Program-made: the position numbers and the translations under genes
Notes under the pieces: model-generated
Database searches by the model: none
Told to the model about the DNA's origin: nothing
What the model saw: only the letters and a program-made list of their open reading frames with translations
NCBI RefSeq assembly: GCF_014529625.1
Contig: NZ_CP076039.1
Location: forward strand, 1,860,001-1,924,000
DNA length: 64,000 bases
Reading direction: 5' to 3'
From: Candidatus Pelagisphaera phototrophica
GTDB taxonomy: Bacteria > Verrucomicrobiota > Verrucomicrobiia > Opitutales > Opitutaceae
Shown: piece by piece, positions 18,109 through 33,395 of the stretch
How the letters are laid out: every line of letters begins with the position of its first letter
Numbering within the stretch: the first letter of the stretch is position 1

Positions 18109-18800
18109 ATAAAAAGCGCTTCACAGAGTTGGTGAACCTGTACTTGGACGACGAAATCTGTTCTTGGGATCTTTCTGATCTTATGGAGGAGACTCGGATG
18201 AATCTGGAGCGGCAAAAGGTATTTCTCGACCACTGTCGCATACATAAAGCGTGCTCTCTTCTCGGAGATTCCTTCGAGGCGAGAAGAAGCAAGCGTAGTT
18301 TCAAGCAGGTCGCTTACGCTGTGGGTGGACTCGCGGCGGCATTTGCGCTTCTAGGAATGGCGGGTAGAAATCTGTTGCCCATGCTGGATGGTCCGACTGC
18401 GCCGCCTGCGATCGTTCAAAGTGGACCCTCGGGTGGCAGCACGCTTTTCTTTCCTGAAATTGCCTCGTCTGAAGTGGCGACCCCGCGATTCTTCAAGGTG
18501 AATGAGCAACCACGAAGTGAATACGTAGGAGTTTCTAGCTTTGGCAATTTGAGAAGCGAGAATACTGGAAACAGGAACGATCGACTCGTCTTAAGCCCTT
18601 CGCAGGACCAGTACGGATTGAATGCTGTGAATCTTTTTTCGGAAGAACTTTTGGATCTGGGAGCGTTAGAACTACAGGATCCTTTTAATGCCTTCAACGA
18701 AATGAACTCTGCTCCTCTCAGCTTTTCTAAAGCGGCCTTTTCTTTGGGGACTAGTTTTGAAAAAGCTACCGTACGAGATAGCCGCAAAAATATGAAGTAG
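18105..18800 (+). CDS. Probable membrane anti-sigma factor partner
   Basis: A 231-residue protein. Its N-terminus RFTELVNLYLDDEICSWDLS and the DHCRIHKAC stretch (~42-50) recall the zinc anti-sigma fold, although a full HxxxCxxC is not evident. One membrane helix lies at ~67-87 (VAYAVGGLAAAFALLGMAG). The rest is a ~145-residue Ser/Asn/Pro-rich extracytoplasmic part with no known domain. The 4-bp overlap with the sigma gene gives the main support for the role. What signal it senses is not visible. Confidence 0.7.
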   Translation: MNKKRFTELVNLYLDDEICSWDLSDLMEETRMNLERQKVFLDHCRIHKACSLLGDSFEARRSKRSFKQVAYAVGGLAAAFALLGMAGRNLLPMLDGPTAPPAIVQSGPSGGSTLFFPEIASSEVATPRFFKVNEQPRSEYVGVSSFGNLRSENTGNRNDRLVLSPSQDQYGLNAVNLFSEELLDLGALELQDPFNAFNEMNSAPLSFSKAAFSLGTSFEKATVRDSRKNMK

Positions 18801-18833
18801 GTAGCCTACGCCTTTTGGATAGGTTATCTGATG

Positions 18834-19451
18834 CTAGCCCAGTGCGGCTTTTATCATCGCTTCGGTACTAACGTTGGGACCGAGTTTCTCAACTACTTTG
18901 GAAATCGCTTTTTTGGCATCGATTTGCTTGTAGCCAAGTGCTTGGAGGGCTAGAGCCGCATCTTCGAGTTTAGATGATTCCTCTGATTCGGCGGATACAG
19001 ACTGGTTTCCTGAGGTTAGGTCTATCGATTGGCTAGCTGAAGCAAAAATAGTGAGCTTGTCCTTAAGCTCTATGATAATCCTCTCTGCGGTCTTTTTTCC
19101 AATCCCCGGTGTTTTTGCGAGGAGATTTGCGTCTTCGCTGGAAATCGCAGAAATGAGATTTCCGAGGGGAAGCTTGCTCATGAGGCTGATTGCCACTTTG
19201 GGTCCGACACCGGAAACTTTCTCGATTACAAGCGCAAAAAAGTCGCGGTCATTTTCTTCCCAAAATCCGTAGAGCGCTTGCGAGTCTTCGCGGTAAACTG
19301 CGTGCGTGTGGAGGATTACGATCTCCCCATTTTGAGGAAGCTTCTCAGCTGTGGTAACGGGAATATTGACTGCGTATCCAATTCCTCCTGCAGAGATAAT
19401 CGCTGAAAGAGGTGTTGCTTTGAGCAGTTTGCCTTCAATAAGGACAATCAT
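18834..19451 (-). CDS. ruvA: Holliday junction branch migration protein RuvA
   Basis: A 205-residue protein starting MIVLIEGKLLKATPLSAIIS. The N-terminal OB fold includes GGIGYAVNIP. The two helix-hairpin-helix DNA-binding motifs are VSGVGPKVAISLMS (~80-93) and TPGIGKKTAERIIIELK (~114-130). A flexible Ser/Glu linker leads to the RuvB-binding domain (EDAALALQALGYKQIDAKKAI). It binds four-way junctions and directs RuvB. It is the last gene of a tight dapA-dapB-ruvA cluster, 2 bp after dapB. Confidence 0.97.
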   Translation of the reverse strand: MIVLIEGKLLKATPLSAIISAGGIGYAVNIPVTTAEKLPQNGEIVILHTHAVYREDSQALYGFWEENDRDFFALVIEKVSGVGPKVAISLMSKLPLGNLISAISSEDANLLAKTPGIGKKTAERIIIELKDKLTIFASASQSIDLTSGNQSVSAESEESSKLEDAALALQALGYKQIDAKKAISKVVEKLGPNVSTEAMIKAALG

Positions 19452-19453
19452 GC

Positions 19454-20179
19454 CTACTTAAGTCCGAGAACATCCCGGATAGAGTATACGCCGGCTTCTT
19501 TACCGAATGCCCACTCAGCGGCTCTAATGGCGCCGCGAGCAAAAATTGTGCGACTGGATGCCCTGTGAATGAGTTCGACTCTCTCTCCGATATCCGCGAA
19601 TATGACGCTATGATCGCCCACTACGTCACCGCCTCTAAGTGAGTGCATGCCAACCTCTCGCTCTCCGCGTTCTCCTAGAATTCCTTCGCGGCCGTTTTGA
19701 AGATCGTCGTAGCTGAGGTTGCGTGGCCCCAGTACGGATTCGGCTAGCATGAGGGCCGTTCCACTGGGAGCGTCCTTTTTCATGTTGTGATGCATCTCGG
19801 TGATCTCCGCGTTACACGATAGAGGCAGAATTTCCGCGGCCTTTTCTGTAAGGTAGCAGAGCAGGTTGACTCCAATGGAATAGTTTCCTGCCCAGACAGT
19901 GGGCATAGCTTGGGCGATTTTAAGCAATTTCGCACGCTGTTCCTGGGTGTGACCCGTCGTTCCGCAGATCACGACTTTACCTAACTCCGCAGCAGCTTCG
20001 AAAACGCTTTGCGTGACGGTGTGAAAGGAAAAGTCGATCACGACATCAGAGTCGCTAAGCGCTGCCTTTAGATCGTCTCCGATATCCACTTCCCCTGTGA
20101 TTGTGTGACCCGAACTCGCGGCTTCATCCGCAATCGCGGCACCCATCCGACCTTTAAATCCGTTGATGCAAATGTTCAT
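19454..20179 (-). CDS. dapB: 4-hydroxy-tetrahydrodipicolinate reductase
   Basis: A 241-residue enzyme reducing hydroxy-tetrahydrodipicolinate with NAD(P)H in lysine/diaminopimelate synthesis. The NGFKGRMG dinucleotide loop is at ~6-13, the family GTTGHT at ~94-99, and the signature EMHHNMKKDAPSGTA (~151-165) contains the catalytic His pair and Lys. Three bp separate it from dapA upstream, so the two form an operon. Confidence 0.97.
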   Translation of the reverse strand: MNICINGFKGRMGAAIADEAASSGHTITGEVDIGDDLKAALSDSDVVIDFSFHTVTQSVFEAAAELGKVVICGTTGHTQEQRAKLLKIAQAMPTVWAGNYSIGVNLLCYLTEKAAEILPLSCNAEITEMHHNMKKDAPSGTALMLAESVLGPRNLSYDDLQNGREGILGERGEREVGMHSLRGGDVVGDHSVIFADIGERVELIHRASSRTIFARGAIRAAEWAFGKEAGVYSIRDVLGLK

Positions 20180-20182
20180 GTT

Positions 20183-21097
20183 CTAAGCGATTTGGTTTGC
20201 GTTCGCATTAGCGATTACGGACGAGAGGCTTTCCAATATTGTTTGCCGGTTTTCTGGACTTGCGTTGCAAAGGGGTAGGCGAACGCGGTCGGTGGAAAAG
20301 ATTTCGAGCTTTTTAAGACAGATCTTCACAGGAACAGGACTCGGCTCAATAAAAAGATCTCTGAATAATGGATACAGCTCGCGGTGAACCTCCGACGCTC
20401 CTTTCAGGTCTCCACTCAATGCGGTAGTGACAAGCTCAGTCACTTCTGCAGGTAGAACATTGGACGCTACTGAAATGACTCCATCGGCTCCAGATGCTAT
20501 GAACGAAAGAGTAAGTCCATCATCGCCACTGAGGACTGTGATGTCGTCCCCTAGCGCGGATTTGAGTTCATCGACTCTGCTTACTTCTCCGCCGGACTCC
20601 TTAATGTGGCGAATGTTCGGATGCTTCGACAAGAGCCTTTCCACAGTCGCGATTGAAATATCAACGATACAACGACCCGGAATTGAGTAGAGAATAATCG
20701 GCTTGTCCGTTTCTTGGGCGATTGCCGAGAAGTGTTGAAAAATTCCCTCCTGGGTGGGCTTATTGTAATAGCCGGTTACGTGCAGCGTGCCGTCAGCACC
20801 TGCGGCGTCAGCATGCTTTGTCAAAGAGATCGCTTCCCGAGTAGAGTTGGATCCGGAGCCTGCGATAACGGGCAGACGGCCTTTGGCGGATTCTACTACG
20901 ATTTCAACCACCTCACCATGCTCCTCATGATTAAGGGTGGGGGACTCGCCAGTGGTTCCCATGGGCAGCAAACCTTGGATGCCACCTGAAATTTGCCGTT
21001 CGACAAACTTTTGTAGATCTTCGATTGCGAGCGTGCCATCGTCATTAAACGGAGTGGCCATCGCAGTGATGGATCCTGTGAATCGTGTATCAGTCAT
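20183..21097 (-). CDS. dapA: 4-hydroxy-tetrahydrodipicolinate synthase
   Basis: A 304-residue class I aldolase of the DapA/NAL family. GTTGESPTL (~48-56) holds the Thr of the proton relay, YYNKPTQEG (~135-143) the Tyr and HIKESGGEVSR (~165-175) the Schiff-base Lys. It condenses pyruvate with aspartate semialdehyde at the start of the lysine/DAP branch. The direct neighbour dapB supports DapA over other family members. The gene starts at the ATG at 21097. Confidence 0.97.
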   Translation of the reverse strand: MTDTRFTGSITAMATPFNDDGTLAIEDLQKFVERQISGGIQGLLPMGTTGESPTLNHEEHGEVVEIVVESAKGRLPVIAGSGSNSTREAISLTKHADAAGADGTLHVTGYYNKPTQEGIFQHFSAIAQETDKPIILYSIPGRCIVDISIATVERLLSKHPNIRHIKESGGEVSRVDELKSALGDDITVLSGDDGLTLSFIASGADGVISVASNVLPAEVTELVTTALSGDLKGASEVHRELYPLFRDLFIEPSPVPVKICLKKLEIFSTDRVRLPLCNASPENRQTILESLSSVIANANANQIA

Positions 21098-21209
21098 TTT
21101 TCATCGCAGTATAGGAGGGGGGTTCCGAGTTCCAATATGATTTATATACTCGGTCAACTATTTAGGTCCTCAAAGGTTAGAATTATCAAAACTTAGTAAA
21201 AACAAAACG

Positions 21210-22313
21210 ATGTCCTTAGAAATATTCGATGAACTATTGCTGCTCACCGTGTAAAATGGAGCGAGTGACATAGTTATAAAGTCTGACAAGCCAATTTTAT
21301 CGCGAATAAATGGGGGCTAGAAGAAGTTGACATGCCTTCCATCGAAGGGGAAGACGCCCTCGCATTTGTGGAAGAGAGCTTACCTTCCAACTTTCGCGAG
21401 GTTTGGGATATGGAAGGACAGGTCGGTTTTGCGTACTTTCTCGTCCAAGCGGGTCGTTATCGTGTGAACGCCTTTTTGCAGTGTGGATCCGTTTCCATTG
21501 TGTTCCGCCATATCAAAAGCAAGATCCCAAATTTTGAAGAGCTGAATCTAGACAAGAAGACTCTCACCCAGTTTATCGAAGCGAAGGATGGGATCGTTCT
21601 ACTCTGTGGCGCTAGTGGATCGGGAAGGAGCGCCACGATGGCTTGTCTTCTGAATCATTTGAACCACACGGCGGAAAAGCATGTGGTCTCTCTGGAAGAC
21701 TCAGTTGAGTACAACTTCATCGACCATCAAAGCGTGTTCAACCAAAGAGAGATCGGCATGGATACGCTAAATTTCAAAAAGGCCCTTCGTGCGGTGCTGC
21801 TTAAGAATCCCTACATTATTATTATGGGGGAGACGCTTGAAGCGGGCACTTTCGATACGGCTATGTCTGCTGCGGAGACGGGTCACCTTGTTTTCACTAC
21901 ACTTCTCGCGGCCAGTGCGTAGCAGGCGATTCTTAGGCTTTTCGAATATTTTCCGCAGGAAAAGCAGGAACTTGTTTAGCGCGAGCTTTCCGATTCACTC
22001 CGATGCGTAATTGTACAAAAAAATACTTCCTTCGCTTGAAGAGGATAGCCGCGTTCCCGTGTAAGAAATCATGGTGGCGGACTCGGTTGTTCGCAGCACG
22101 ATCAAGGAGGGCAAATTTGATAAGATCCAAGCGCTTCTAGAGGTCTCCTCTGAAACGGGATATCGTTCCTTCAATAAGGACCTGTTCCGACTAGTGAAGG
22201 AGGTAAAGATCAGCAAGTGGGACGCGCTTAAAAAGTCTCCGAACCGCCAGGCTCTCGAAATGAATATAAAGGGGATCCTCCTTGGCGAAGGAAGCCGCAT
22301 TATTGGAAATTGA
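21210..22313 (+). pseudogene. PilT-type twitching ATPase pseudogene
   Basis: The full-length outline of a PilT/PilU-like ATPase can be followed: MSLEIFDELLLLTV, then NGASDIVIKSDKPI, the Walker A region GASGSGRSATMA, the Asp box SLEDSVEYNF, Walker B-like IIIMGET, and the C-terminal part GKFDKIQALL. It is broken by a TAA (21252-21254), a frameshift in the G-run near 21311-21316, TAG codons at 21920 and 21977, a frameshift in the A-run 22017-22023, and a TAA at 22062. The Walker A Lys is already Arg. It overlaps the 3' end of hemA by 14 bp, convergently. Confidence 0.9.
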
Positions 22314-23352
22314 CGATACCTCTGCTTTCAAGCATCTGCCAAATGGAAGCCGACTTCTGAGCCGCGATTTTTTCGCTGTGCTTGATGGCAGCTCTTCTTT
22401 CGCTTAAATTGTCCTTTGCGATTTTTGCGAGATCGTCTAGATTGTAGAGGTAGACGTTTTCAATCTCTTGGCAGGAGGCGTCCATATTCCTCGGGAGTCC
22501 GAGATCTATGAGAAAAAGGGGCCGGTTCTTTCGGGCGTCCATGTGCTTTGCAAGGGATCTTGCGTCTAGCAAAGGGGAGTCCGTTTCGGTAGAAGAAATA
22601 ATGATATCGTAGTCGTTCAGATAAGTTTCCAGTTCGCCTAATGCATGCGGATTTCCTCCCCATTTGTCCGCGATCTCATTGGCCCGTTCTGAATGGTGAC
22701 TAGCGACGCCGAAGTTGCTGGCTCCTCGGCTTTTCAATGCTTTAGCAGTCTTTTCCCCGATTTCGCCGGTTCCGACAACGAGAGCTGAGGTGTTCTTGAG
22801 CGATCCGAATATTTTCAGAGAAAGATCCACTGCCACATTGGAAATATTAATTTGACCCTCGCCGATTTGAGTTGAGTGGCGAATCAGCTTCGCGGCTTGG
22901 AATCCTTTCTGGACCATGCGATTAATCAATCGTCCTGAGTACCCAAGACGCTGGCAGGTGGCATAGGCCTTTTTAACTTGTCCGAATATCTCAGCCTCTC
23001 CGGTGATTTGCGACCGAAGTCCGGCGGAAACTTCGATTAAATGTTTTATCGCTTCCTGCCCAAATCGAATTCTAGCGTGGGATTCGATTTCTTCTCGTTG
23101 AACGTTATAAAATGAGGCCAACGTTTTGAATGCGATGGCACCGCCATTTTTTGGGTCGCTCGTTTTCGAATAAAGCTCGAACCGATTACATGTATTCAGA
23201 ATCAAAGATTCTTCTAGTAATGGTGAACGATGCAAGGCTTCGTAAAGCATCTTTATTTGTGCATCACCCAGTGAATACCGCTCCCGTTTCTCCAAGGATA
23301 CGGTTTCATGGTTGATGGTTATAAGCAATAGTTCACCTTGATACGTACTCAT
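22300..23352 (-). CDS. hemA: Glutamyl-tRNA reductase
   Basis: A 350-residue enzyme making glutamate-1-semialdehyde from Glu-tRNA, the first step of C5-pathway haem synthesis. The catalytic Cys is in LILNTCNRFELY (~51-62). The family motif ITGEAEIFGQVKKAYA is at ~116-131, and the NADPH Rossmann loop ALVVGTGEIGEKTAKAL at ~189-205. It is slightly shorter than the typical ~420 residues because the C-terminal dimerisation helix is shortened. Its ATG overlaps the stop of the upstream CcsA-like gene by 4 bp, as in many hemA/ccsA (hemX) pairs. Confidence 0.96.
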   Translation of the reverse strand: MSTYQGELLLITINHETVSLEKRERYSLGDAQIKMLYEALHRSPLLEESLILNTCNRFELYSKTSDPKNGGAIAFKTLASFYNVQREEIESHARIRFGQEAIKHLIEVSAGLRSQITGEAEIFGQVKKAYATCQRLGYSGRLINRMVQKGFQAAKLIRHSTQIGEGQINISNVAVDLSLKIFGSLKNTSALVVGTGEIGEKTAKALKSRGASNFGVASHHSERANEIADKWGGNPHALGELETYLNDYDIIISSTETDSPLLDARSLAKHMDARKNRPLFLIDLGLPRNMDASCQEIENVYLYNLDDLAKIAKDNLSERRAAIKHSEKIAAQKSASIWQMLESRGIVNFQ

Positions 23353-24212
23353 GGAGATCTAGCAGGTGGCGTGCTATCTAGAAGGAGCGACTCCTTTGCT
23401 TTGGGTTGATCAACTGCCTCAAGCGACAAGAGGGCTGTGGCAAATACGGCGATGCAGGTCCAGGAATATTGCTTGTAGGAAAGTGTCTGGCGGGATCTCA
23501 ATAGGATTAGGATTCCGTATGCGAACCAGACGACAATGGTAGTGCCTAGCTTGGAAAGATCCACGGATTCGGTTTCACGAAACCAGTAAACCGCTCCGAT
23601 TGCAAGTGACGCGGACAGTATGAAAAAACCGATGGCGAGCAGGCGGAAGTTGATCTGGGTTAGCTCGAATATCGAAGGCATGTAGGGGAAAAGACCCCCC
23701 ATCTTCTTTTGCTTCAAACTCCTGCTTTGCAGGAGGTACATGACGGAGGTAAGCGCTAGAATCCCAAATACTCCGTAACTGAAAAGGGCGAGGGCAGCGT
23801 GCGTCTCAATCCAGGGGGAATCTCCAAAAATCGTTACACGCGATGGACTATCCCAAGATCGGACTGTAAGTGAAAGTATAGAGAAAACGCTTGCGAAGGT
23901 GGATGTAAACATCCCCAGAAAACTGACGCGGAAAGCGGGTCCGACAAAGATGTAAAGAGCGATTGCGGACCATACCATGAACTGGACTAGCTCGAAGCGG
24001 TTCGAAAGTGGGCAGCCCCCATATTCGAGACCGCGTGTGTAAAGGCCGATCGTCTGAAGGATCCAGCCTAAGCTAACGAGCACGAGCGTGGAGGGCCGCT
24101 TCGCTTTTCGATGCAACTTAAGTGCAGTATAAGTCCTTAGCGCTGCGGCAACGACAAAAACAACAGTCGCTAGGAAAATCCACTGGCGGTCCTCAATTCC
24201 GAGAAGACTCAT
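23349..24212 (-). CDS. CcsA/HemX-type cytochrome c assembly membrane protein
   Basis: A 287-residue integral membrane protein with about eight hydrophobic helices. Family marks are WILQTIGLYTRGLEYGGCPL and the conserved His/Trp region ESLSLLVWSA-like FELVQFMVWSAIALY, then GDSPWIETHAALALFSYGVFGILA with the haem-ligand-type His. It belongs to the ABC-type/CcsA cytochrome c assembly family, often annotated HemX when next to hemA. It probably handles haem delivery for cytochrome c or tunes HemA; context supports either. Translationally coupled to hemA. Confidence 0.88.
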   Translation of the reverse strand: MSLLGIEDRQWIFLATVVFVVAAALRTYTALKLHRKAKRPSTLVLVSLGWILQTIGLYTRGLEYGGCPLSNRFELVQFMVWSAIALYIFVGPAFRVSFLGMFTSTFASVFSILSLTVRSWDSPSRVTIFGDSPWIETHAALALFSYGVFGILALTSVMYLLQSRSLKQKKMGGLFPYMPSIFELTQINFRLLAIGFFILSASLAIGAVYWFRETESVDLSKLGTTIVVWFAYGILILLRSRQTLSYKQYSWTCIAVFATALLSLEAVDQPKAKESLLLDSTPPARSP

Positions 24213-24244
24213 GGCAAACGTTCAGCGAGATTGGGAGTTTTCTC

Positions 24245-24346
24245 CTACTTGCTTTTTCTCGCAGCTTTCTGCTCCCGCTCAATTTTGCGAGATAGGTAGG
24301 CTTTACGCCTCTTTTGCTTCGTTTTTTTTCTGTGTTGTTGTCCCAT
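24245..24346 (-). CDS. Tiny basic MGQQH protein (33 aa)
   Basis: It reads MGQQHRKKTKQKRRKAYLSR then KIEREQKAARKSK and stop, so almost half the residues are K or R. I recognise this kind of very small MGQQH-starting basic protein as a recurrent conserved gene of Verrucomicrobia. Its composition suggests binding to RNA or the ribosome, which is inference. It is too short for most gene callers. AAGGACTGACC upstream on the minus strand gives a ribosome-binding site (AAGGA, 6-7 bp before the ATG). Confidence 0.75.
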   Translation of the reverse strand: MGQQHRKKTKQKRRKAYLSRKIEREQKAARKSK

Positions 24347-24532
24347 ATGGTCAGTCCTTTTGAAAGGTATCTAGATAATGATTAGAGTTGTTACGATGTG
24401 AAAGGCTTGGGTCAAGCTGCTAAGGGACCGGCACTTATCCTATCTACCAAAAAGGACGCTCAATAGTTCTAGCCCAGATTTCACCCGCACAAGGCAGCCT
24501 CCGCTATTTACTCATTCTTTTTCTAGAGGATG

Positions 24533-24925
24533 TTAGCTCGATTGCTCAGGAACTCGCATGGAAAACCGAGGAATCTGTACATGTACTCGCATCCCATCAT
24601 CGTCCACCCCGTGGAAACTGCCCATTGCTGAAGCATCGGTCGCTGACACATGAAAACTGTTGTAGGAGAAAGTTTCGCCCGGAACGAGATCTGGTTCTTT
24701 GCCTACGATCTTGTCCCCCTCGATGACCATCTTATCCCCGTCGGGTTTGTAAATAATCCACTTTCGGCCGAGCAGCTTCACCCTGCGGTCCGAATGGTTC
24801 GAAATGGTTAGATAGTAGACGAAAATATGAGGTGTTTCATCGGGAGTGCCAAAACTGCCATAGTTGTATTCCAGCTTGTCGAGGGTCACCTTGAGCCCGT
24901 CGAGGGCTAGCGATTGTTGACTCAT
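24533..24925 (-). CDS. apaG: ApaG domain protein
   Basis: A 130-residue ApaG-family (DUF525) protein with a fibronectin-III-like fold. Visible family blocks are FVYYLTISNHSDRRVKLLGR (~35-54), the WIIYKPDGDKMVIEGDKIVG stretch (~56-75), and PGETFSYNSFH followed by GSFHGVDDDG. ApaG has been linked to cobalt/magnesium homeostasis and Ap4A hydrolysis, but its biochemical role is unclear. It lies 7 bp after a thiG/thiS remnant on the same strand. Confidence 0.9.
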   Translation of the reverse strand: MSQQSLALDGLKVTLDKLEYNYGSFGTPDETPHIFVYYLTISNHSDRRVKLLGRKWIIYKPDGDKMVIEGDKIVGKEPDLVPGETFSYNSFHVSATDASAMGSFHGVDDDGMRVHVQIPRFSMRVPEQSS

Positions 24926-24932
24926 GTAGCGT

Positions 24933-25094
24933 TTAGCCGCCGGCGACGATCTTTACGATTTCCAGCGAGTCTCCCTCTTTAAATATGACGGCTTTCATCC
25001 ACTCTTTGCTGCTAAAATTGTCGGTGCCAATGAGCAGTCGTGAACTGAATTCGCGGTTTCCAATTGTGAGCGGTTCTGACAGATGAAAGGCCAT
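24933..25094 (-). pseudogene. ThiG N-terminus joined to ThiS C-terminus (remnant)
   Basis: From the ATG at 25094 the product begins SEPLTIGNREFSSRLLIGT, which is the start of thiazole synthase ThiG. After FSS it continues KEWMKAVIFKEGDSLEIVKI then VAGG-stop, which is the end of the sulfur carrier ThiS including its terminal Gly-Gly. About 53 residues in all, so neither enzyme core is present. An in-frame deletion between neighbouring thiG and thiS genes explains it. A few upstream codons extend the frame to 25139. Confidence 0.65.
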
Positions 25095-25226
25095 AAATTC
25101 AAGCGAGCATCGTATCGTGCCGTGGTCAGGGCAATTCAAATAGAAAAGTGAGAAGTATCACGGGCGAGGTAGAGCTGCAGTACGATTATGATTGAATGCC
25201 GTTCGAACTAGGGCGGTATTTCTGCC

Positions 25227-26651
25227 ATGGGCAAAATTGCGCTTTTGGCGACACGCGATACTTCCGGGCTCGATTCGCTTTCACGTAAGCTAGGGGACCT
25301 GCATGGGTACCAGTTGCTTAAAGTGTCGTCTGTCATGCCGGAAGGGTTGAATCACTGCGAACCAGTCGATTTTAAACAGGCCAGAGAAAAGCTTCAGAAT
25401 GGCGAAGTTTCTCTGCTGGTCGCCAACTACTTTGATCCTGCAAATGTCGGCAGGGATTTCCTATCTTGGAAGACCGCACTACAAGCGTTTGATCATGAGA
25501 TCGCCGACCTCATTCGCTCGGCTGCCCAAACGCCTCATTCGACAACTGTCCTTGGAAATCCGGATCTTTATGCACTAGCGGCAGGGTATTTGGAGAAAGG
25601 CGATGGAGGTTTTTCCCCTGCTTTTCGGATGGAGCAAGCTTGCAACGCATTGCACGCGGTATCTCAGTTCGATGCCTCGGTAGCCCAGTATCTCGAAGCC
25701 CAAGGGGGCGAGGTCCCCGATATCGACGCGCTTAGCGGCTTACCAAGGACGGTAACCTTTTCCTGGAAGCGATCACATTCGCTTCCCGGTGGCGAGACCC
25801 CTCGCCAGAAAGCGGGCCTCTATGGATCGTATGCGAATCATTTCGAAACGGTTGCGGGGCCCGAAGTTGACTATCGGGCGGTGGTGGACAGTTCGCTGGC
25901 AGCCTACGCGATCGGCGAGTTTGAGAAGACGACCGCGCTTATTACGCAAAGGAGTGAACTGATGTCGGCGGCCAGTTCGGATGACTTGGGAACCGCAATT
26001 GAGCATGCAATCGAGGCGACTGAACCGGATCTAGCCGGTGCGACATTAGCGGTAAACGCATCACTGGAGGGAGCCGATATTGCTAAGATTGACTCCATTC
26101 GATTCGCGACTTTCGTTGCGCCGTCTTTTATCAATAGGGAAACGCTGGAGGGAATTCGATTGCTCGAATCTCGCGAAGGCCTCGGATATGAGGCTCTACA
26201 AGAATTGAGGTCGGTTGTTGGGGGAGTTTTGATCCAAGACCGAAATCGTTCGGCGGTGAATCCGTTTTCCTGGAGAATGCCGAGTGCCAACCAACCTCTC
26301 GTAACCGATTGGGAAACTATGATTTTCGGGGTGAGGATTTCGAGGCATCTAAGATCAACCTCTTGCTTGGCCGTAAAGGGTGAGCGGATCATTGCCCAGG
26401 CCTCCGGACTTTCGCATCAACGGAGATTTAGCCAGCGGTTACGTGAAGACGAAAAATCGCTAGGAGACTCTATCTTGGTGTTTGACGAGGATATCGAAGA
26501 TCCAGACCTCTTGTCCGAAGTCAAAGAGCTTGGTGTCACGGTCGTAGTTCATCCGGGAACTGCCAGCTCGCGAGAAGGAGAATTAGTGGACCGAGCGAAT
26601 CAACTCGGACTGGCATTGGTAGCAACTGGGGTTTCCTTCACTAATTTCTAA
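25227..26651 (+). CDS. PurH-like protein with altered active sites (pseudoenzyme candidate)
   Basis: This intact 474-residue frame follows the PurH (AICAR formyltransferase/IMP cyclohydrolase) fold from end to end. KIALLATRDTSGL stands for the family's ALISVSDKTG, FDHEIADLIRSAAQ for the IDIGGPxxIRAAAK block, GGETPRQKAGLYG (~188-200) for YGENPHQxAAxYG, GVLIQDR (~333-339) for VLVQDRD, and a tail ending VATGVSF. The catalytic Lys-His of the KHANPCG motif is replaced (TALITQRSE, ~236-244), and the SDAFFPF block reads DSILVFDED. It is ~40 residues shorter than PurH. Both activities look lost, yet the ORF is clean. Monocistronic; role unknown. Confidence 0.75.
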   Translation: MGKIALLATRDTSGLDSLSRKLGDLHGYQLLKVSSVMPEGLNHCEPVDFKQAREKLQNGEVSLLVANYFDPANVGRDFLSWKTALQAFDHEIADLIRSAAQTPHSTTVLGNPDLYALAAGYLEKGDGGFSPAFRMEQACNALHAVSQFDASVAQYLEAQGGEVPDIDALSGLPRTVTFSWKRSHSLPGGETPRQKAGLYGSYANHFETVAGPEVDYRAVVDSSLAAYAIGEFEKTTALITQRSELMSAASSDDLGTAIEHAIEATEPDLAGATLAVNASLEGADIAKIDSIRFATFVAPSFINRETLEGIRLLESREGLGYEALQELRSVVGGVLIQDRNRSAVNPFSWRMPSANQPLVTDWETMIFGVRISRHLRSTSCLAVKGERIIAQASGLSHQRRFSQRLREDEKSLGDSILVFDEDIEDPDLLSEVKELGVTVVVHPGTASSREGELVDRANQLGLALVATGVSFTNF

Positions 26652-26820
26652 TCAATGTGGCGGCCGATCTCGGTTTTTGCGTTGTGCTGGTGAGAGTCTC
26701 TACCTTCGTCCTTCGATGAAATACCTGGGCGTCAATCGGGGGTTGATTGATTCCAATGAATTCTATCTCTCTTCCCATTCCTAAATTGCCAAACGGGATT
26801 GGGTAGTTTTGGGTGTTATC

Positions 26821-28191
26821 ATGTTCGACCCTATCGAAAAACTTAAAGAGCATTTGCGACACGCAAGTGTTTCAACGGATTCGCAATTCAAGGAGGGTAT
26901 GGCCGCGTCCCAGAACTTTTTGACTGGTCTATTTTCGGAAATGGGGCTCAGTGTCGAAGTCGTGGATACGGATCTGCATCCGATCTTATTGGCCAAGAGG
27001 GAGGGGGACCTCAGTTGGCCGCACATCCTAATCTATGGCCACTACGACGTACAACCTGCGGATCCTATCGAGTTGTGGAATTCGGACCCTTTTGAACCAG
27101 TGGAGCGTGATGGAAGGATTTACGCTCGTGGAGCGGCCGATAACAAAGGACCGCAAATGGCTCATGTCGCAGCGGTTGCCGAGCTGCTGGAGGAAAATCC
27201 GAATCTGCCGTTGAGAATTTCCTTTCTGTTTGAGGGTGAGGAGGAAATCGGAAGTCCCAGTCTACTGCCGTTTCTCGAATCTCGAAAGGGGGAGCTTTCA
27301 CAGGCAGACCTTGTGCTTCTGTCAGACACCTTAAGCCCCAGTGCAGACCAGCTCGTGGTTACGGTAGGCCTAAGGGGCATTGTGGTCATGGATGTCGAAT
27401 TTACGGGTCCGAATAGCGATCTTCATTCGGGATTGCACGGAGGATCCGTTTATAACCCGGTTCAGGCGCTTTGTGAAGTTTGCGCTTCTTTGCATGACAG
27501 TGACAATCGAGTCACTGTACCTGGATTCTATGATGGAGTTACGGAAGTTGAGGAATGGGAACGTGAAGAGCTTGCTCAATTGGGCAGTGATGAAGAGGCT
27601 TACAAACAATTTGTCGGTGTAAAGGCCTTGCATTCACTGTCTGGTTACACCGCTCAAGAGTCAGTTCGCTATTTACCTACACTCGAGTTTAATGGGATTG
27701 GCGGCGGATACCAAGGAGAGGGAAGCAAGACCATTGTGCCTTCCAAGGCCATGACCAAGATTTCTTGCCGCCTTGTTGGAAACCAGGATCCAAAGAAAGT
27801 GGGAGATCTGGTTAGGCAGGCGATTTTGGACCGGACTCCTGAGGGGATTATGGCCAAAATCGACATGGGTCATCAAGGGGCCCCTTACTTGGTTGTTCCT
27901 CCTGGAAAACCGAATTCGCCGGACAATGCCCCGGTGCTCCTAACGAAAGCATTCGAAGCGGCTAAAGTGGCCATTTCGGAAGAGTTTCCCAAATCCGCAC
28001 TGTTCCTCCGAGAAGGGGGAAGCATCCCGATTATCGCAGACATTAAGACGACGCTCGGACTCGATAGTGTAATGATAGGGCTCTTCCTTCCAGAAGACAA
28101 TTTGCACGCTCCGAACGAGAGTATGAATATCGATGTCCTCAAGAAGGGAATACGCGTTTCGAAATCTATACTAAGATCCTTGGCGGGTTGA
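26821..28191 (+). CDS. M20-family dipeptidase / metallopeptidase
   Basis: A 456-residue cytosolic zinc peptidase of the M20 family (dipeptidase/carnosinase-like). Metal and catalytic motifs: YGHYDVQP (~82-89; His ligand and Asp), GAADNKGP (~112-119; bridging Asp), EGEEEIGS (~143-150; catalytic Glu-Glu), LLSDT (~169-173), and the late His in PEDNLHAPNES (~430-440). The domain inserted between them mediates dimerisation. I start it at the ATG at 26821 rather than the in-frame TTG at 26809. Confidence 0.94.
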   Translation: MFDPIEKLKEHLRHASVSTDSQFKEGMAASQNFLTGLFSEMGLSVEVVDTDLHPILLAKREGDLSWPHILIYGHYDVQPADPIELWNSDPFEPVERDGRIYARGAADNKGPQMAHVAAVAELLEENPNLPLRISFLFEGEEEIGSPSLLPFLESRKGELSQADLVLLSDTLSPSADQLVVTVGLRGIVVMDVEFTGPNSDLHSGLHGGSVYNPVQALCEVCASLHDSDNRVTVPGFYDGVTEVEEWEREELAQLGSDEEAYKQFVGVKALHSLSGYTAQESVRYLPTLEFNGIGGGYQGEGSKTIVPSKAMTKISCRLVGNQDPKKVGDLVRQAILDRTPEGIMAKIDMGHQGAPYLVVPPGKPNSPDNAPVLLTKAFEAAKVAISEEFPKSALFLREGGSIPIIADIKTTLGLDSVMIGLFLPEDNLHAPNESMNIDVLKKGIRVSKSILRSLAG

Positions 28192-28338
28192 GGCTCAATT
28201 GATTCTAGCAATTGCCTTAGGTTATTTCGTCACAGCCTGTACGGTGTAAATATTTTATACGAGTATAAGAATCACTTTGAACTTGGATGCTTAGTTATTT
28301 TCCATACATCGGGCTTGAGGTGGAGGAATGAGGTAAAG

Positions 28339-28830
28339 TTACTCACTTCTTGCTCTAAAGCGGACTTGAAGGTGAGTGAGGATTGCGTTGGAAATTTTCT
28401 TTTTCTGATAGTTACGGAGGATAGTGAGCCGCATCAGGTCACCGTTCCTCGATCGGGTCATGAGGGGACTTATCAGACGCGATAGGCACGCCATCCAAAA
28501 GGCTTTTCCATTTAAAGAGACGACCGGTCGTCCCACATACTATAGCCTGCTTTAGAAGGGATAATGAGTTCGTTTCGGTATCCGGCTAGGTGCCTTCTTC
28601 AGAATTTGACCAAAATTGCGTTCGGCAAAACAGGGGGGTGGACCGGAGTTGTTAGCCAGATCGAAATGAGTGATGCCCAGATCGAAGGCCGTGAAAATAA
28701 TCTCTCGATGATCATCAGTTGGAGCGTCCCCGCCAAAATTATGCCATAGCCCGAGCGATAGCTCGGGCAGGCGAATCCCGCTTTGGCCACAACGGCGGTA
28801 AGTCATGGATTCGTATCGACTGGAAGAAGG
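28339..28830 (-). pseudogene. Aldo/keto reductase N-terminal pseudogene
   Basis: Starting near 28827 the frame reads SRYESMTYRRCGQSGIRLPE then LSLGLWHNFGGD, the N-terminus of YghZ-type aldo/keto reductases, up to NFGQILKK. A frameshift at about 28600 moves the homology (HLAGYRNELIIPSKAGYSMW) into another frame, and multiple stops follow. The catalytic core and the C-terminal half are missing. An unrelated aldo/keto reductase C-terminus occurs at 45436-45762. Confidence 0.8.
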
Positions 28831-28911
28831 AAACTATGTAGACACATAACTGGCGGAACTAATTGAATACAGAACTTTTTGAATTTAAGGCAAAGTTCTG
28901 AGAGATTTACC

Positions 28912-30066
28912 TCAAAGGCATTCTTCCAATATTTCGCGAAGGTCCGCACTTTCGAGATCGATCGGATTCCCTTTCATACTGCTGGATTGGGTGGATTTTT
29001 TGACTGCCTCTGGGATCATCGCCTCGGTAAAGCCGAGTTCGCTAAGAGGTGCTAGGGGGAGATCTTTCAGGAGTGACTCTATCCAGGCAATTGCGTAGCT
29101 TCCTTTTGCGGTCGGGTTCCCGGTTAAAATCTGAGCGACTTGGTCGAATTTTCTAGAAGTCTCTCCGTCGGATTCCCGTCGCATTACGATATCATAATTC
29201 ATCCTTAAAACGGGAAGTAGCAAACTCGCGCAGAGCGCTCCGTGCGGGGCTTCGATCATTCCTCCAATAGGGCCTGCGAATCCATGGACTGCACCCAGTT
29301 TTGCGTTCGCGAGAGCGATGCCGCCACAAAGGCTAGCGACGCAGAGATCTGATTTGGCCGCCTTATCTAATTTTGGTTGGCAAGCAGCTCGAAGGGAAAG
29401 AGAAGCCCTTTGGAGCCCTTGGAGAGCAATTCCATCGCTCAATGGATTTGCGTCGCGTGAAAGATAGGCTTCCAAGCATTGAATGAAAGCGTCCATGCCT
29501 GTGTAGGCTGATATTTCTGGCGGGAGGTCGTAGGTGAGCTCCGGATCAACGACTGCCCATCGTGGAATCATATACGGACTGCGCAGGCTCACCTTAACGG
29601 CAGAGTCGGGGACACCGATTACGCTGTTTCGCGTTACTTCAGATCCGGTGCCAGCGGTTGTAGGGATCGCCATGTAGGGGATTGATGGATGCAAAAGCGG
29701 TTTTCCTTTCCCCACTATTTCAAGGTAGTCTAGTAGCTCACCATCGTTGTTGAGCAAGGCGGCGAGGGCTTTTCCAGTATCGATGACACTGCCTCCGCCA
29801 AGTCCAATGACCGTATCTGGCTGAAAAGTTCTCGCGTTCTTAAGTGCGTTAGAAATCAGGTAGGTTGTGGGTTCGGATGTAACTGGAAACAAGGCGGTTT
29901 CGATATCATTTTCGGCGAGCCTGCCCATTAGAAATTGATGCCTCGCAGGTGTTTTCCCGGTAAGGATAAACGCCCGCTTTGTGCTTTCGGGAAGGAAGTT
30001 GCACAGGTTCTTTGCAATGCCATCGCCTAAGTGAATCGAGTTCGCGGTCGAGAATGAAAAGTTCAT
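28912..30066 (-). CDS. Iron-containing alcohol dehydrogenase
   Basis: A 384-residue group III (Fe-dependent) alcohol dehydrogenase. NAD-binding GLGGGSVIDTGKA is at ~93-105, PTTAGTGSEVTRNSV at ~134-148, and the iron-ligand His residues lie in GAVHGFAGPIGGMIEAPHGA (~257-276). It reduces or oxidises small aldehydes and alcohols with NAD(P). It lies 105 bp upstream of, and on the same strand as, a HAD phosphatase whose transcript ends towards it, so the two may be co-transcribed. Confidence 0.95.
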   Translation of the reverse strand: MNFSFSTANSIHLGDGIAKNLCNFLPESTKRAFILTGKTPARHQFLMGRLAENDIETALFPVTSEPTTYLISNALKNARTFQPDTVIGLGGGSVIDTGKALAALLNNDGELLDYLEIVGKGKPLLHPSIPYMAIPTTAGTGSEVTRNSVIGVPDSAVKVSLRSPYMIPRWAVVDPELTYDLPPEISAYTGMDAFIQCLEAYLSRDANPLSDGIALQGLQRASLSLRAACQPKLDKAAKSDLCVASLCGGIALANAKLGAVHGFAGPIGGMIEAPHGALCASLLLPVLRMNYDIVMRRESDGETSRKFDQVAQILTGNPTAKGSYAIAWIESLLKDLPLAPLSELGFTEAMIPEAVKKSTQSSSMKGNPIDLESADLREILEECL

Positions 30067-30150
30067 TGTGAAAATTCAGGGCCTGATTGAGAGGCGGTGC
30101 AATCCTTCAATGTAGCGGGACTAGCGAGATTTCTTAATGGGAGGTATTGA

Positions 30151-30807
30151 TTAGCCAAACCACTCTTGAAACTTTTCTGGGCCTCGCTCTAAGGACTCCC
30201 AGATCTCGTGAGCAAGGCCTCTGCTCTCGTCGTTGTGGGTGGCGAGATCGGGAACGAGTATCACGCGAGCTCCCGAAGCGGCCGCGGCGTGGATACCGTG
30301 ACGTGAATCCTCAAAGGCAAGGCAGTCTGACGGGTCGACTCCCATCTGTTCTGCGGCAGTAATGAAAATTTCGGGATGAGGTTTTCCGTTTGTAACTTGG
30401 TCTCCGCTGACGATAGAGTGAAAGTGGCAGATCAGATCGTGGTGCCCGAGCTTCTTTTGCGCGAGCGACTGTCTGGACGAAGTGGCGACACTTTGAGGAA
30501 TTCCCTCGTTGGACAGCCATTCGATGCAAATGCGGGCCCCTTGGTGCATTGGAACGCCGTGCGCGATTTTCTGGTGGTAGATCTTATCAGACTTCGCGAC
30601 TAGCTCCGGGACATCGACTTGGTCGCCAATTGCTTGGTGGAGAGCTTCGCGGAAGCTGGATTCGTTCATTCCGATGATCCTTCTGAACTCGACTACGTCG
30701 ATTTCGAGGCCCAATTCCTGAGAGGCTTGGAGCCATGACTCGTGCGAAATTCGCTCGGTATCAAGAAGAAGGCCATCCATATCCCAGATCACTGCTTTGA
30801 ATCTCAC
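30151..30807 (-). CDS. HAD-family phosphatase (beta-phosphoglucomutase-like)
   Basis: A 218-residue HAD subfamily IA enzyme. Motif I is WDMDGLLLDTE (~8-18) with nucleophile Asp and acid/base Asp. Motif II is the Ser in VATSSRQ (~112-118), motif III the Lys in NGKPHPEIF (~140-148), motif IV EDSRHGIHAAAASG (~165-178). The alpha-helical C1 cap and GxP pattern match phosphoglucomutase or sugar-phosphatase members. The substrate is a small phosphorylated metabolite of unknown identity. Confidence 0.93.
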   Translation of the reverse strand: MRFKAVIWDMDGLLLDTERISHESWLQASQELGLEIDVVEFRRIIGMNESSFREALHQAIGDQVDVPELVAKSDKIYHQKIAHGVPMHQGARICIEWLSNEGIPQSVATSSRQSLAQKKLGHHDLICHFHSIVSGDQVTNGKPHPEIFITAAEQMGVDPSDCLAFEDSRHGIHAAAASGARVILVPDLATHNDESRGLAHEIWESLERGPEKFQEWFG

Positions 30808-30888
30808 ACTTAGAATAGGTCAAAAAAACCGCCGAGGAAGCAACAGTTATCGTGACCTAGTGGAGTAAATCCGATTTCATTGATTCTC

Positions 30889-31060
30889 ATGAAAAGACCA
30901 TCTCGCAGACTCTGGATTCTCCTTTTGGTGATTGGCGATGTTCTTTTACATGCTCTATCTGCCAGTCGGGGTGTATCCCGTTCGGGAAAATACGAATACG
31001 GGCCACCTATCTAATCCACTTGATGGAAAACGAATTTTTAGTATCTTATTTCGTACATTT
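30889..31060 (+). pseudogene. Unrecognised N-terminal fragment with frameshift
   Basis: ATG at 30889 gives MKRPSRRLWILLLVIG, a typical signal or membrane anchor. Near 30935 the protein-like reading shifts by one base to AMFFYMLYLPVGVYPVREN followed by TGHLSNPLDGK and runs into the sulfatase frame. This looks like the 5' end of a lost gene. It would otherwise add an implausible 43-residue extension to the sulfatase. Confidence 0.35.
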
Positions 31061-32605
31061 ATGATAACTCGAATTAAGGGCCCTTTCTCAATTGGAAATC
31101 GCGTTTGGCGAATAGGCAGCACCGCATGGTACCTTTTGGCTGGATTGATGCTTCAGTCATTGAACGCCCAGGACTCCCGATCACCTGGGGTGAGCTCGTC
31201 GAAACCCAACATCGTCTGGATTATCGTGGACGATATGTCGGCGAACCTTTCCTGCTATGGAGAGACGTTGATCGAGACGCCGCATCTCGATCAGTTAGCG
31301 TCGAGCGGGATTAAGTTTACCCAAGCCTTTGTGACCGCCCCGGTATGCTCGACCAATCGCTCGGCATTCATCACCGGAATGTACCAGACCACAATTGGTT
31401 CGCATCATCATCGCAGCGGACGTGGAGAAATCAAAATCCGCTTGCCCGAAGGCATTCGTCCCATTCCGGAATACTTTCAAGAGGCGGGCTATTACACAGC
31501 GATAACGGGCTGGCCGAACAAAGACCGGTCGAACAACGGTAAAACCGACTACAACTTTGAATGGGATCGTTCCATATATGACGGTCCGGACTGGAGCAAG
31601 CGCAAGCCGGGCCAGCCGTTCTTCGCTCAGATCCAGCTCCGAGGTGGGAAACACCGGGGAGGGGATATCGAAGCTTCGAGAAGATTCGTTCAGAGAATAA
31701 AAGAAGAGTTTGGGTCCGTGACTGATCCCAAGGATGTAACGTTGCCTCCTTACTATCCCAATGATCAGGTACTTTTAGAAGACTGGGCTGCTTATTTGGA
31801 TACAGTGAGACTGACCGATAAGTTTGTTGGTGATGTCATTGCTCGGTTGAAGGGAGAAGGGGACTTCGAAAACACGGTTGTGCTTTTTATGACGGACCAC
31901 GGAATTAGTCACGCTCGTGGTAAACAGTTCCTATATGAGGAGGGGATTCATGTTCCTCTAATTGTTAGCGGACCTGGGCTTGCGGCCGGTGCAGTTCGAA
32001 CCGATTTGGTCGAGCATATTGATATCGCAGCCTTGTCTTTGGGACTGGCGAATATAGAAATTCCGGGACACATGCAGGCCAAGAATATCCTGAGCGAAGA
32101 TTACATTGAGAGGACTGCGATTTTCTCCGCTCGCGATCGTTGTGATGAAACGGTGGAGCACATGCGTTGCATCCGGACGGACCGCTACAAGTATATTCGG
32201 AACTTTCTTCCCAACCGTCCTCATATGCAGCCGAACCGATATAAGGATGGGAAATCGATTATCAAAGTACTGCGTGAGGCTAACGAGGCAGGCATGCTTA
32301 ACGAAGTTCAGGCACGTATTTTCGAATCAACTCGACCGAAAGAAGAATTGTACGATCTCCAAAACGATCCTTTTGAAATTCACAACCTAGCAGATGACCC
32401 GAAGCATCGGAAACGTTTAAAGGACCTGCGAAGTCGACTGGATAGCTGGATTAAAGCTACAGGTGATCGAGGACCGGAGCCGGTGGGAATGTATGATAGC
32501 GATATGGCGGTCTATTTGCAATCGCGAGGAAGCGATCCTAAACAGTTGCAGGTGTTGGCTGGAAATATCAAGCAGATGAAAGACTGGGCTGCTGCAGGGA
32601 AGTAG
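31061..32605 (+). CDS. Sulfatase (family S1) with CSTNR motif
   Basis: A 514-residue protein from the ATG at 31061, with signal peptide ending near LNAQ. WIIVDDMSANLSCYG is at ~53-67. The formylglycine position reads C-S-T-N-R-S (Cys ~96) followed by FITGMYQTTIGSHHHR, so the usual Pro/Ala of CxP/AxR is Thr. GWPNKD replaces the GKWHLG-type motif, and MTDHGISHARGKQFLYEEG is the second metal and sulfate-binding block. It belongs to the MYQTxIGxHxHR branch of heparan-sulfamidase-like S1 enzymes. It is followed by a DUF1080 lipoprotein (52 bp) and an MFS transporter, a likely polysaccharide-use operon. Confidence 0.9.
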   Translation: MITRIKGPFSIGNRVWRIGSTAWYLLAGLMLQSLNAQDSRSPGVSSSKPNIVWIIVDDMSANLSCYGETLIETPHLDQLASSGIKFTQAFVTAPVCSTNRSAFITGMYQTTIGSHHHRSGRGEIKIRLPEGIRPIPEYFQEAGYYTAITGWPNKDRSNNGKTDYNFEWDRSIYDGPDWSKRKPGQPFFAQIQLRGGKHRGGDIEASRRFVQRIKEEFGSVTDPKDVTLPPYYPNDQVLLEDWAAYLDTVRLTDKFVGDVIARLKGEGDFENTVVLFMTDHGISHARGKQFLYEEGIHVPLIVSGPGLAAGAVRTDLVEHIDIAALSLGLANIEIPGHMQAKNILSEDYIERTAIFSARDRCDETVEHMRCIRTDRYKYIRNFLPNRPHMQPNRYKDGKSIIKVLREANEAGMLNEVQARIFESTRPKEELYDLQNDPFEIHNLADDPKHRKRLKDLRSRLDSWIKATGDRGPEPVGMYDSDMAVYLQSRGSDPKQLQVLAGNIKQMKDWAAAGK

Positions 32606-32657
32606 CTCTGGTATTCAATCGCTCCCGCTATCAGCGGACTAGGAGAAAACTCCCATT

Positions 32658-33275
32658 ATGAATAAAATTTTCAGCTTTGTGATCGTACTCGCAACGAGTG
32701 CGCTTTTGTGTAGTTGCTCTAACTCGGGAAAGGTCGTTTCCCTCTTTGACGGAAAGAGTCTGGCTAATTGGGAGATTCAGAGTGGCGGGAGATTTTCAGC
32801 GGAAAATGGAGTGCTAAAAGTAGACAAAGGGGTGGGCTGGCTCCGTTCCGTGGATACGTTCGCCGACTATACTCTGACCATCGAATTTCGGTTCCTTGAA
32901 AAGGGTTCGAACAGTGGCATCTTTGTTCGTACAGGTCCGACTAGCAAAGATGATGAGAGCGGTTGGCCGGACAACGGGTACCAAGTGCAGTGTATGGACA
33001 CGCTGGATGGAACCTATCCCTTGGCGACGATGATTCCTTACGGTGCGCCGCCTTTCGATCACGAGTCGGATCTCGATGCCTTGCGCAAAGCGTATAAGCC
33101 TGCGGGTGAGTGGCATACTTATGAGATAACCTGTAGCGGAGAGGAAATGTCGATTTCGCTTAATGGCTCGCTCATTACAACTTGTACCAGTATTAAGAAT
33201 CTCTCGGGTCACATTGGAATTCAGTGTGAGCCGGGGTTACTCGAGTTTCGGAAAATCGAAGTGGACGTTTTTTGA
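32658..33275 (+). CDS. DUF1080 (3-keto-disaccharide hydrolase-type) lipoprotein
   Basis: A 205-residue protein with a lipoprotein signal (SALLCSCS, lipobox Cys ~19-21) preceded by AGGAGAAA at 32641. The DUF1080 concanavalin-like fold is evident from VVSLFDGKSLANWEI (~27-41), LTIEFRFLEKGSNSGIFVRT (~73-92), GWPDNGYQVQCMD and GEWHTYEITCSG (~149-160), ending GHIGIQCE-x-LEFRKIEV. Members bind or cleave glycans, some acting on 3-keto-glycosides. It lies between the sulfatase and the MFS gene on the same strand. Confidence 0.93.
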   Translation: MNKIFSFVIVLATSALLCSCSNSGKVVSLFDGKSLANWEIQSGGRFSAENGVLKVDKGVGWLRSVDTFADYTLTIEFRFLEKGSNSGIFVRTGPTSKDDESGWPDNGYQVQCMDTLDGTYPLATMIPYGAPPFDHESDLDALRKAYKPAGEWHTYEITCSGEEMSISLNGSLITTCTSIKNLSGHIGIQCEPGLLEFRKIEVDVF

Positions 33276-33395
33276 AGATTAAGAAGCCTCGCAGTAGATT
33301 TTAGGAATTAGTTGAAAAGACTTTGATAGTCCTTGGTCTTTGACTCGCGTCTCAGGGTCAATCGGTCTTCTTCTTCTCCATAGAATCCAGTCTTG

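Follow-up and report, generated by a model that had tools for sequence, protein, structure and literature searches.

The window analysed here, a stretch of 64,000 nucleotides of the Candidatus Pelagisphaera phototrophica chromosome, carries a descendant of the bifunctional purine enzyme PurH that has lost both catalytic sites and is nevertheless retained under purifying selection at the ancestral purH locus. We call this gene PurHd. It stands about an even chance, in our judgement, of being a displaced pseudoenzyme, i.e., a protein that catalyses neither of the two PurH reactions and is kept as a ligand-binding or partner protein.

An intact gene homologous to purH over both domains

The host genome consists of a single contig of 4.09 Mb, of which the window represents positions G000:C1:1860001-1924000. 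The gene of interest was identified by its open reading frame, a Pfam match, a match to a protein of known structure and alignments:

25227..26651 (+): PurHd, 474 aa, a PurH descendant with both catalytic sites lost

An intact PurH-like frame had been reported at this place by a first-pass annotation made from the letters alone, and this was borne out by 474 codons without a stop and by homology to bifunctional PurH across both domains. The protein matched Pfam family PF01808 with an E value of 1.6e-31 (110 bits against a cut-off of 25) and the structurally characterised PurH 3zzm of the PDB with an E value of 1.9e-20, whereas it stayed under both cut-offs of the NCBIfam PurH equivalogs PRK00881 and TIGR00355, reaching 141 of the required 402 and 106 of the required 528 bits. 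The MGS family of Pfam (PF02142) was not matched by any of the 17 available PurHd proteins at an E value of 0.1. The closest named relative, Opitutales bacterium UBA5694, carries the same gene with 95% identity, and all but one of the 16 other copies share 37–57% identity with that of the window. Modelling of the structure, which the first-pass annotation had proposed, was carried out with AlphaFold from four alignment rows, but the model was too poor to be used (mean pLDDT 51, pTM 0.38), with blocks in residues 1–60 reaching 81–88.

Loss of both active sites

All 17 PurHd proteins were aligned with 11 canonical PurH proteins of the order. The PurHd set comprised the copies of the window, G001, G002, G004, G006, G008 and G010 (genus g1), G018 (g9), G022 (g13), and G029 and G221-G227 (g20); the G004 protein is truncated to 420 aa by a contig end. 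The presumed correspondence of residues to those of canonical PurH was taken from motifs and an avian alignment. Numbering follows the human enzyme, and the cyclohydrolase set of Lys66, Tyr104, Asp125 and Lys137 is the one named in PMC3261824. Two changes in the window's gene mark the former catalytic sites:

25403..25404 (+): deletion junction at about codon 59/60, in place of the canonical GRVKTLHP...HGG segment with Lys66 (32 alignment columns absent)
25947..25952 (+): QR instead of the Lys266-His267 pair of the AICAR formyltransferase (from the alignment)

On the cyclohydrolase side, the window's protein lacks the GRVKTLHPKIHGGLL... segment and carries Gln for Lys137, while Asp125 is retained. 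The deletion of the segment with Lys66 spans 30–32 residues in the different copies; it is found in 17 of 17 PurHd proteins and also takes in the positions of Arg64 and Thr67, whereas Lys66 is present in all 11 canonical sequences. The position of Lys137 is occupied by Q, R, L, W or F and never by Lys, Tyr104 is left in four of the 17 copies, and Asp125 is present in every one. On the formyltransferase side, the KH of the canonical motif KHTNPCG is changed to QR in the window's protein (TQRSE). Among the 17 proteins, Lys266 is retained in none and His267 in one, and Arg207, Tyr208, Asp/Glu339, Asn431, Arg451 and Arg588 are each absent throughout; His213 is still found in 11. From 217 columns which are invariant in the 11 canonical rows, only 24 are invariant and identical in PurHd, another 16 correspond to gaps throughout the PurHd copies and 79 show the canonical residue in no copy. 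The alignment with the canonical proteins thus confirms the replacement of the catalytic pair by TQRSE that the first-pass annotation had noticed, and the changes which it had seen in the cyclohydrolase motifs go further than it claimed, with the Lys66 segment deleted and Lys137 changed to Gln.

PurHd occupies the ancestral purH locus

Two neighbours of PurHd were identified by positional orthology with canonical purH loci, and three gene remnants lie close by:

21332-22299: remnant of a T2SSE-family ATPase gene
24533..24925 (-): apaG, divergent neighbour of PurHd
24933..25139 (-): thiG remnant, used as neutral control
26809..28191 (+): M20 peptidase gene, downstream of PurHd in the same orientation
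28552-28806: remnant of an aldo-keto reductase gene

Canonical purH is followed by an M20 peptidase gene in the same orientation at five of six loci and preceded by a divergent apaG at three (G013, G030 and G187); the exception, G015, shows neither gene within about 6 kb. At the PurHd loci, counting the window, a full M20 gene is found downstream in 14 of 17 cases and apaG upstream likewise in 14 of 17. The M20 exceptions are G224 with only a piece of the gene and G002 and G004 with none within the flank. The recurrent neighbours of PurHd are the M20 peptidase, ApaG, HemA and a CcsA-like protein, joined in some genomes by ThiG and a radical-SAM/BATS protein which we take to be ThiH. Seven relatives have an intact thiG close to PurHd, and in several relatives thiG and the gene for the presumed ThiH adjoin PurHd; of thiG the window has only the remnant. 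The apaG gene is an intact ORF of 130 aa in the window and occurs as three pieces in the closest relative (L052 7320-7699).

A tree of the kind proposed by the first-pass annotation was only partly conclusive. All PurHd rows formed one group in a quick tree (SH-aLRT 100), and the deletion is common to all of them, but their placement against canonical PurH was not settled: in a reduced tree with six of the 17 PurHd rows and long branches, placing PurHd with the remaining sequences of the order was not rejected (p-AU 0.744). The descent of PurHd from the local purH is therefore based on synteny. Rfam searches yielded no match in 10 of the 13 PurHd flank loci, in 11 PurO/PurV loci or in positions 18000-34000 of the window.

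PurHd is retained under purifying selection

Values of dN/dS were determined only for pairs with a synonymous difference below 0.62, which provided four PurHd pairs; wider pairs were saturated and left unused. The closest pair, consisting of the window's gene and that of G006, yielded a dN/dS of 0.137, based on 26.5 changes at 1075 nonsynonymous and 56.5 at 347 synonymous sites (Fisher P 4.9e-18), and the pairs G002/G004 and G223/G227 yielded 0.085 and 0.144, respectively. Fisher P values over the three pairs ranged from 4.9e-18 to 9.6e-67, and both domains were constrained in each of them. The fourth pair, G224/G227, gave 0.316 near saturation (dS 1.31, 53% identity) and was kept outside the main test. 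No stop interrupts the frame in any of the 17 copies, counting the truncated one of G004.

The value for the closest pair falls within the range of the intact genes of the same two genomes, namely 0.150 for HemA, 0.108 for the CcsA-like protein and 0.091 for the M20 peptidase, which were named from Pfam matches, as well as 0.088 for DapA, 0.210 for DapB, 0.202 for an alcohol dehydrogenase, 0.272 for a HAD protein, 0.264 for a sulfatase and 0.138 for PurO. The names DapA, DapB, alcohol dehydrogenase, HAD and sulfatase are our assumptions from reading the ORFs. With only 21 codons to compare, apaG yielded 0.559, its copy in G006 appearing broken; the gene, intact in the window, is 85.4% identical in G006, where gap openings or gapped bases number 11, and it looks broken in the closest relative, where it is split into three pieces. 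PurHd itself is 94.2% identical between the two genomes without a single gap, whereas the remnants beside it differ by 9–16%. The thiG remnant together with its spacer shows 87.7% identity and is gap-free, the T2SSE-family remnant 83.9% with gaps (610 of 968 bases matched), the remnant of the aldo-keto reductase gene 90.8% (98 of 255 bases matched), and two intergenic spacers about 91%. The damaged genes of which the first-pass annotation had spoken are real, and its argument that selection keeps the frame of PurHd is supported by a dN/dS in the range of intact genes next to drifting remnants; the check by dN/dS which it had suggested led to values far from 1 in three pairs (0.085–0.144). Nonsynonymous divergence in G223/G227 was higher in PurHd (dN 0.182) than in PurO (0.081) and PurV (0.023).

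A formyltransferase and a PurO-like protein in place of canonical PurH

A search for canonical purH had likewise been proposed in the first-pass annotation, and none was found in the whole host genome; it contains a formyltransferase-only protein, PurV, and a PurO-like protein instead. PurHd as a paralogue beside a canonical purH is thus ruled out. The first-pass annotation had considered that a missing second purH would speak against its view if a proper alignment also restored the motifs; the second purH is indeed absent, yet the motifs were not restored.

The only other PF01808 match of the genome is PurV, a protein of 387 aa encoded at G000:C1:2251933 (about 2.25 Mb), which scored 555.7 bits against NCBIfam PRK07106 (cut-off 415) and retains the motifs RYG, KH, SN and GAGQQSR. 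Its best chains in the PDB, those of avian and human ATIC, reached about 390 bits, and the first bacterial-type PurH followed with 93 bits. Judged by its sequence, PurV is a complete AICAR formyltransferase. The PurO family PF07826 has a single match in the genome at G000:C1:933271 (about 0.93 Mb), scoring 127.5 bits (cut-off 28.1), but this protein remained far under the cut-offs of the NCBIfam IMP cyclohydrolase equivalogs (32.2 bits where 150 are required, and 21.1 where 158.35 are). A profile of 17 PurO-like proteins matched the solved PurO structure 2ntk weakly (E 0.00065, positions 18–135), with the motifs GR, RS, SNG and TPRI aligned. The genes for PurHd, PurV and PurO lie far apart on the host chromosome. 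Among the 14 PurO-containing genomes in a sample of 57, PF02142 was matched once in 13 and not in G002, and never at PurHd; 12 of these matches lie in frames of 1079–1128 codons, the length of CarB, and one in a frame of 367.

Distribution of PurHd, PurV and PurO

Within the family, which belongs to the Opitutales, PurO was found in 22 of 252 genomes, all of them in the genera g1, g9, g13 and g20. PurHd is present in 17 of these 22 genomes; if only the 18 with a completeness of 90% or more are counted, 17 contain it. PurV was found in 18 of the 22; the searches yielded none in G004 and G006, both of which contain PurHd. The PurO genomes without PurHd are G003, G005, G007, G009 and G168. In G007 and G009 the contig breaks off within the M20 gene, towards the expected position of PurHd, which is therefore cut off by the assembly there, while in G003, G005 and G168 searches for M20 at an E value of 1e-60 found nothing, so that either a missing locus or a lost PurHd is possible. 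The weak PF01808 match of G168 appears from reading of its ORF to be a LacI-type regulator. Among the matches listed for the family, PurHd is restricted to the four genera, the order and phylum having been covered by samples. The 43 genomes without PurO in the sample of 57 comprise 37 with a full-length PF01808 match and six without any, and among the matches listed some PurO-less genomes of the family have weak best matches (e.g., G063, G174, G182 and G231). G044 probably has two canonical PurH, as PF01808 is matched there twice over its full length, each time with about 397 bits.

PurC, which acts earlier in the pathway, was found in 20 of the 22 PurO-bearing family genomes. A divergent PurC (about 120 bits, frame of 372–381 codons) occurs in six g1 genomes including that of the window, where it lies outside the window at G000:C1:971110-971841, and a PurC type of 237–255 bits occurs in G001, G005, G007, G009 and the other genera. 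Remodelling of the purine pathway seems to have taken at least two steps.

Outside the family, PurO of the archaeal type is widespread in Verrucomicrobiota (134 of 387 genomes). Each of the 36 such genomes tested contains a single PF01808 match; 34 of these frames have 372–439 codons, the size of a formyltransferase without a cyclohydrolase domain, and those of G349 and G500 are longer. A formyltransferase and PurO therefore need no PurHd as such. The proteins concerned belong to other subfamilies, as only one of 12 outside PurO loci matched the PurO of the window's genome (28% identity), and 30 outside PurV loci match its PurV at 20–30% identity.

Newly conserved residues

Conservation within PurHd peaks at residues 61–100, 141–200 and 321–360, corresponding to three stretches of the gene:

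25446..25496 (+): conserved stretch VGRxFxSWKxALxAFD in the old cyclohydrolase domain, residues 74–90, with D89 as the Asp125 equivalent
25647..25826 (+): conserved core 1, residues 141–200 (conservation profile)
26178..26357 (+): conserved core 2, residues 318–377, GLGYEALQELRSVVGG..QD....NP..W......QP....W...RH..S (alignments and conservation profile)

In the common alignment, 53 columns are invariant in PurHd if the truncated G004 row is skipped where absent; 45 of them hold the majority residue of canonical PurH, and eight are specific for PurHd, including W349 and R182. A separate alignment of the 17 PurHd proteins contained 50 invariant columns. The pattern GRxFxSWKxALxAFD is absent from canonical PurH.

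Possible functions of PurHd

Because both catalytic sets are gone and two candidate replacements are present, PurHd most likely carries out neither PurH reaction. Purifying selection in both domains and the new conserved residues in turn indicate that a folded PurHd protein matters. The loss of catalytic residues and the purifying selection that characterise a pseudoenzyme are thus both found in PurHd. The preferred course of events is a double displacement, in which PurV would have taken over the AICAR formyltransferase step and the PurO-like protein the cyclohydrolase step, with the sites of PurHd presumably lost in a single event that preceded the divergence of the four genera. PurHd may have kept the PurH fold and, no longer catalytic, may sense a ligand or serve as a partner subunit, thereby adjusting the final part of purine synthesis from AICAR to IMP; we put this forward tentatively and with less than even confidence. 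The narrower proposal, in which PurHd is a sensor of AICAR, FAICAR or IMP, or a binding partner that PurV or the divergent PurO would require to be fully active, is a doubtful one. A regulatory or nucleotide-binding role, which the first-pass annotation had offered as an example, is possible. Several observations count against a regulator or partner: the PurHd gene is not linked to those for PurV and PurO on the chromosome, Rfam searches revealed no RNA switch nearby, the 36 PurO-bearing genomes tested outside the family have no second PF01808 protein, the PurO-like protein stays under the NCBIfam cut-offs, PurHd evolves faster than both PurV and PurO, and PurV was not found in two genomes that contain PurHd.

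It is unlikely, though well worth considering, that PurHd is an enzyme for a different reaction, with the old folds binding a related nucleotide and the new conserved residues forming a new active site. The invariant columns, the PurHd-specific ones such as W349 and R182, the near-invariant GRxFxSWK and the constraint on both domains would all fit an enzyme, and the PurH-domain relative ForH (6nko) with its solved structure offers a parallel; however, the recurrent neighbours suggest no reaction, and the 45 invariant residues shared with canonical PurH may be structural. A moonlighting role unrelated to purines, already present in the ancestral PurH and surviving the takeover of its enzymatic jobs, appears improbable to us. 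It would agree with the ancestral neighbourhood being kept although the enzyme residues were lost and with PurHd being retained where the adjacent thiG was lost, but we know of no second role of a bacterial PurH, and PurV, PurO and PurHd occur in the same four genera.

Very little speaks for PurHd still performing one of the two PurH reactions via a rearranged site, which we consider highly improbable. The Asp125 equivalent is present in all copies and the PurO-like protein is so divergent that its identity as a cyclohydrolase is only putative, but every one of the 17 copies lacks the Lys66 segment and has another residue for Lys137, Tyr104 remains in four, Lys266 in none and His267 in one, and PurV is predicted to be a complete formyltransferase. 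Least credible of all is a pseudogene that by chance has not yet been hit. Although the fast divergence of the copies, 15 of 16 being only 37–57% identical to the window's, and the adjoining gene remnants could be read in this way, the low dN/dS values in three pairs with their Fisher P values, the lack of stops in 17 of 17 copies and the gap-free divergence of 5.8% in the closest pair, against 9–16% in the remnants, speak against it. A decaying PurHd was rejected by the selection test and the drift of the adjacent remnants.

Comparison with known systems

Dead enzyme relatives as such are already known, and dead duplicates are common. PurHd resembles bifunctional PurH (ATIC; PF01808 and PF02142) in its homology over the whole length and in sharing the locus of its relatives' canonical purH, but differs in staying under the NCBIfam cut-offs, lacking an MGS match and having lost both catalytic sets. 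ForH, which we take to belong to formycin synthesis, is likewise a relative of the PurH cyclohydrolase domain outside ordinary PurH; it is, however, a single-domain protein of 216 aa and was matched by a canonical PurH query, not by PurHd.

According to PMC6797443, organisms other than archaea use PurH almost uniformly for the last two purine steps, and the common occurrence of PurO in Verrucomicrobiota contrasts with this near-uniformity. Archaea combine PurH1, PurH2, PurP and PurO, as stated in passages of PMC3261824. The genomes studied here are similar in that a formyltransferase without a cyclohydrolase domain and a PurO-type protein are found instead of PurH, but a full-length, doubly dead PurH alongside them is not described in those passages. 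Trypanosomatid deoxyhypusine synthase (PMC3663545) and the AdoMetDC prozyme (PMC5201418) are presented as dead paralogues that activate a partner. PurHd shares with them the retention of a dead relative of a biosynthetic enzyme, and its partner role is proposed by this analogy; the trypanosomatid proteins, as described there, are dead paralogues of an active enzyme, whereas PurHd is the original gene beside its distant homologue PurV and the unrelated PurO.

In the open literature that we searched, no account of a doubly dead PurH turned up. PurHd also serves as a warning for annotation, as it passes the PF01808 cut-off yet is hardly able to perform either reaction, while the NCBIfam cut-offs exclude it. 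Under the narrower and doubtful proposal of a sensor or binding partner, a displaced enzyme would have been converted at its own locus into a dedicated non-catalytic regulator or component of its displacers. A dead original which is still selected at its own locus represents a natural experiment on the roles of enzymes beyond catalysis, and what is new in it, to our knowledge, is that the dead protein is the original one, kept in place beside two replacements.
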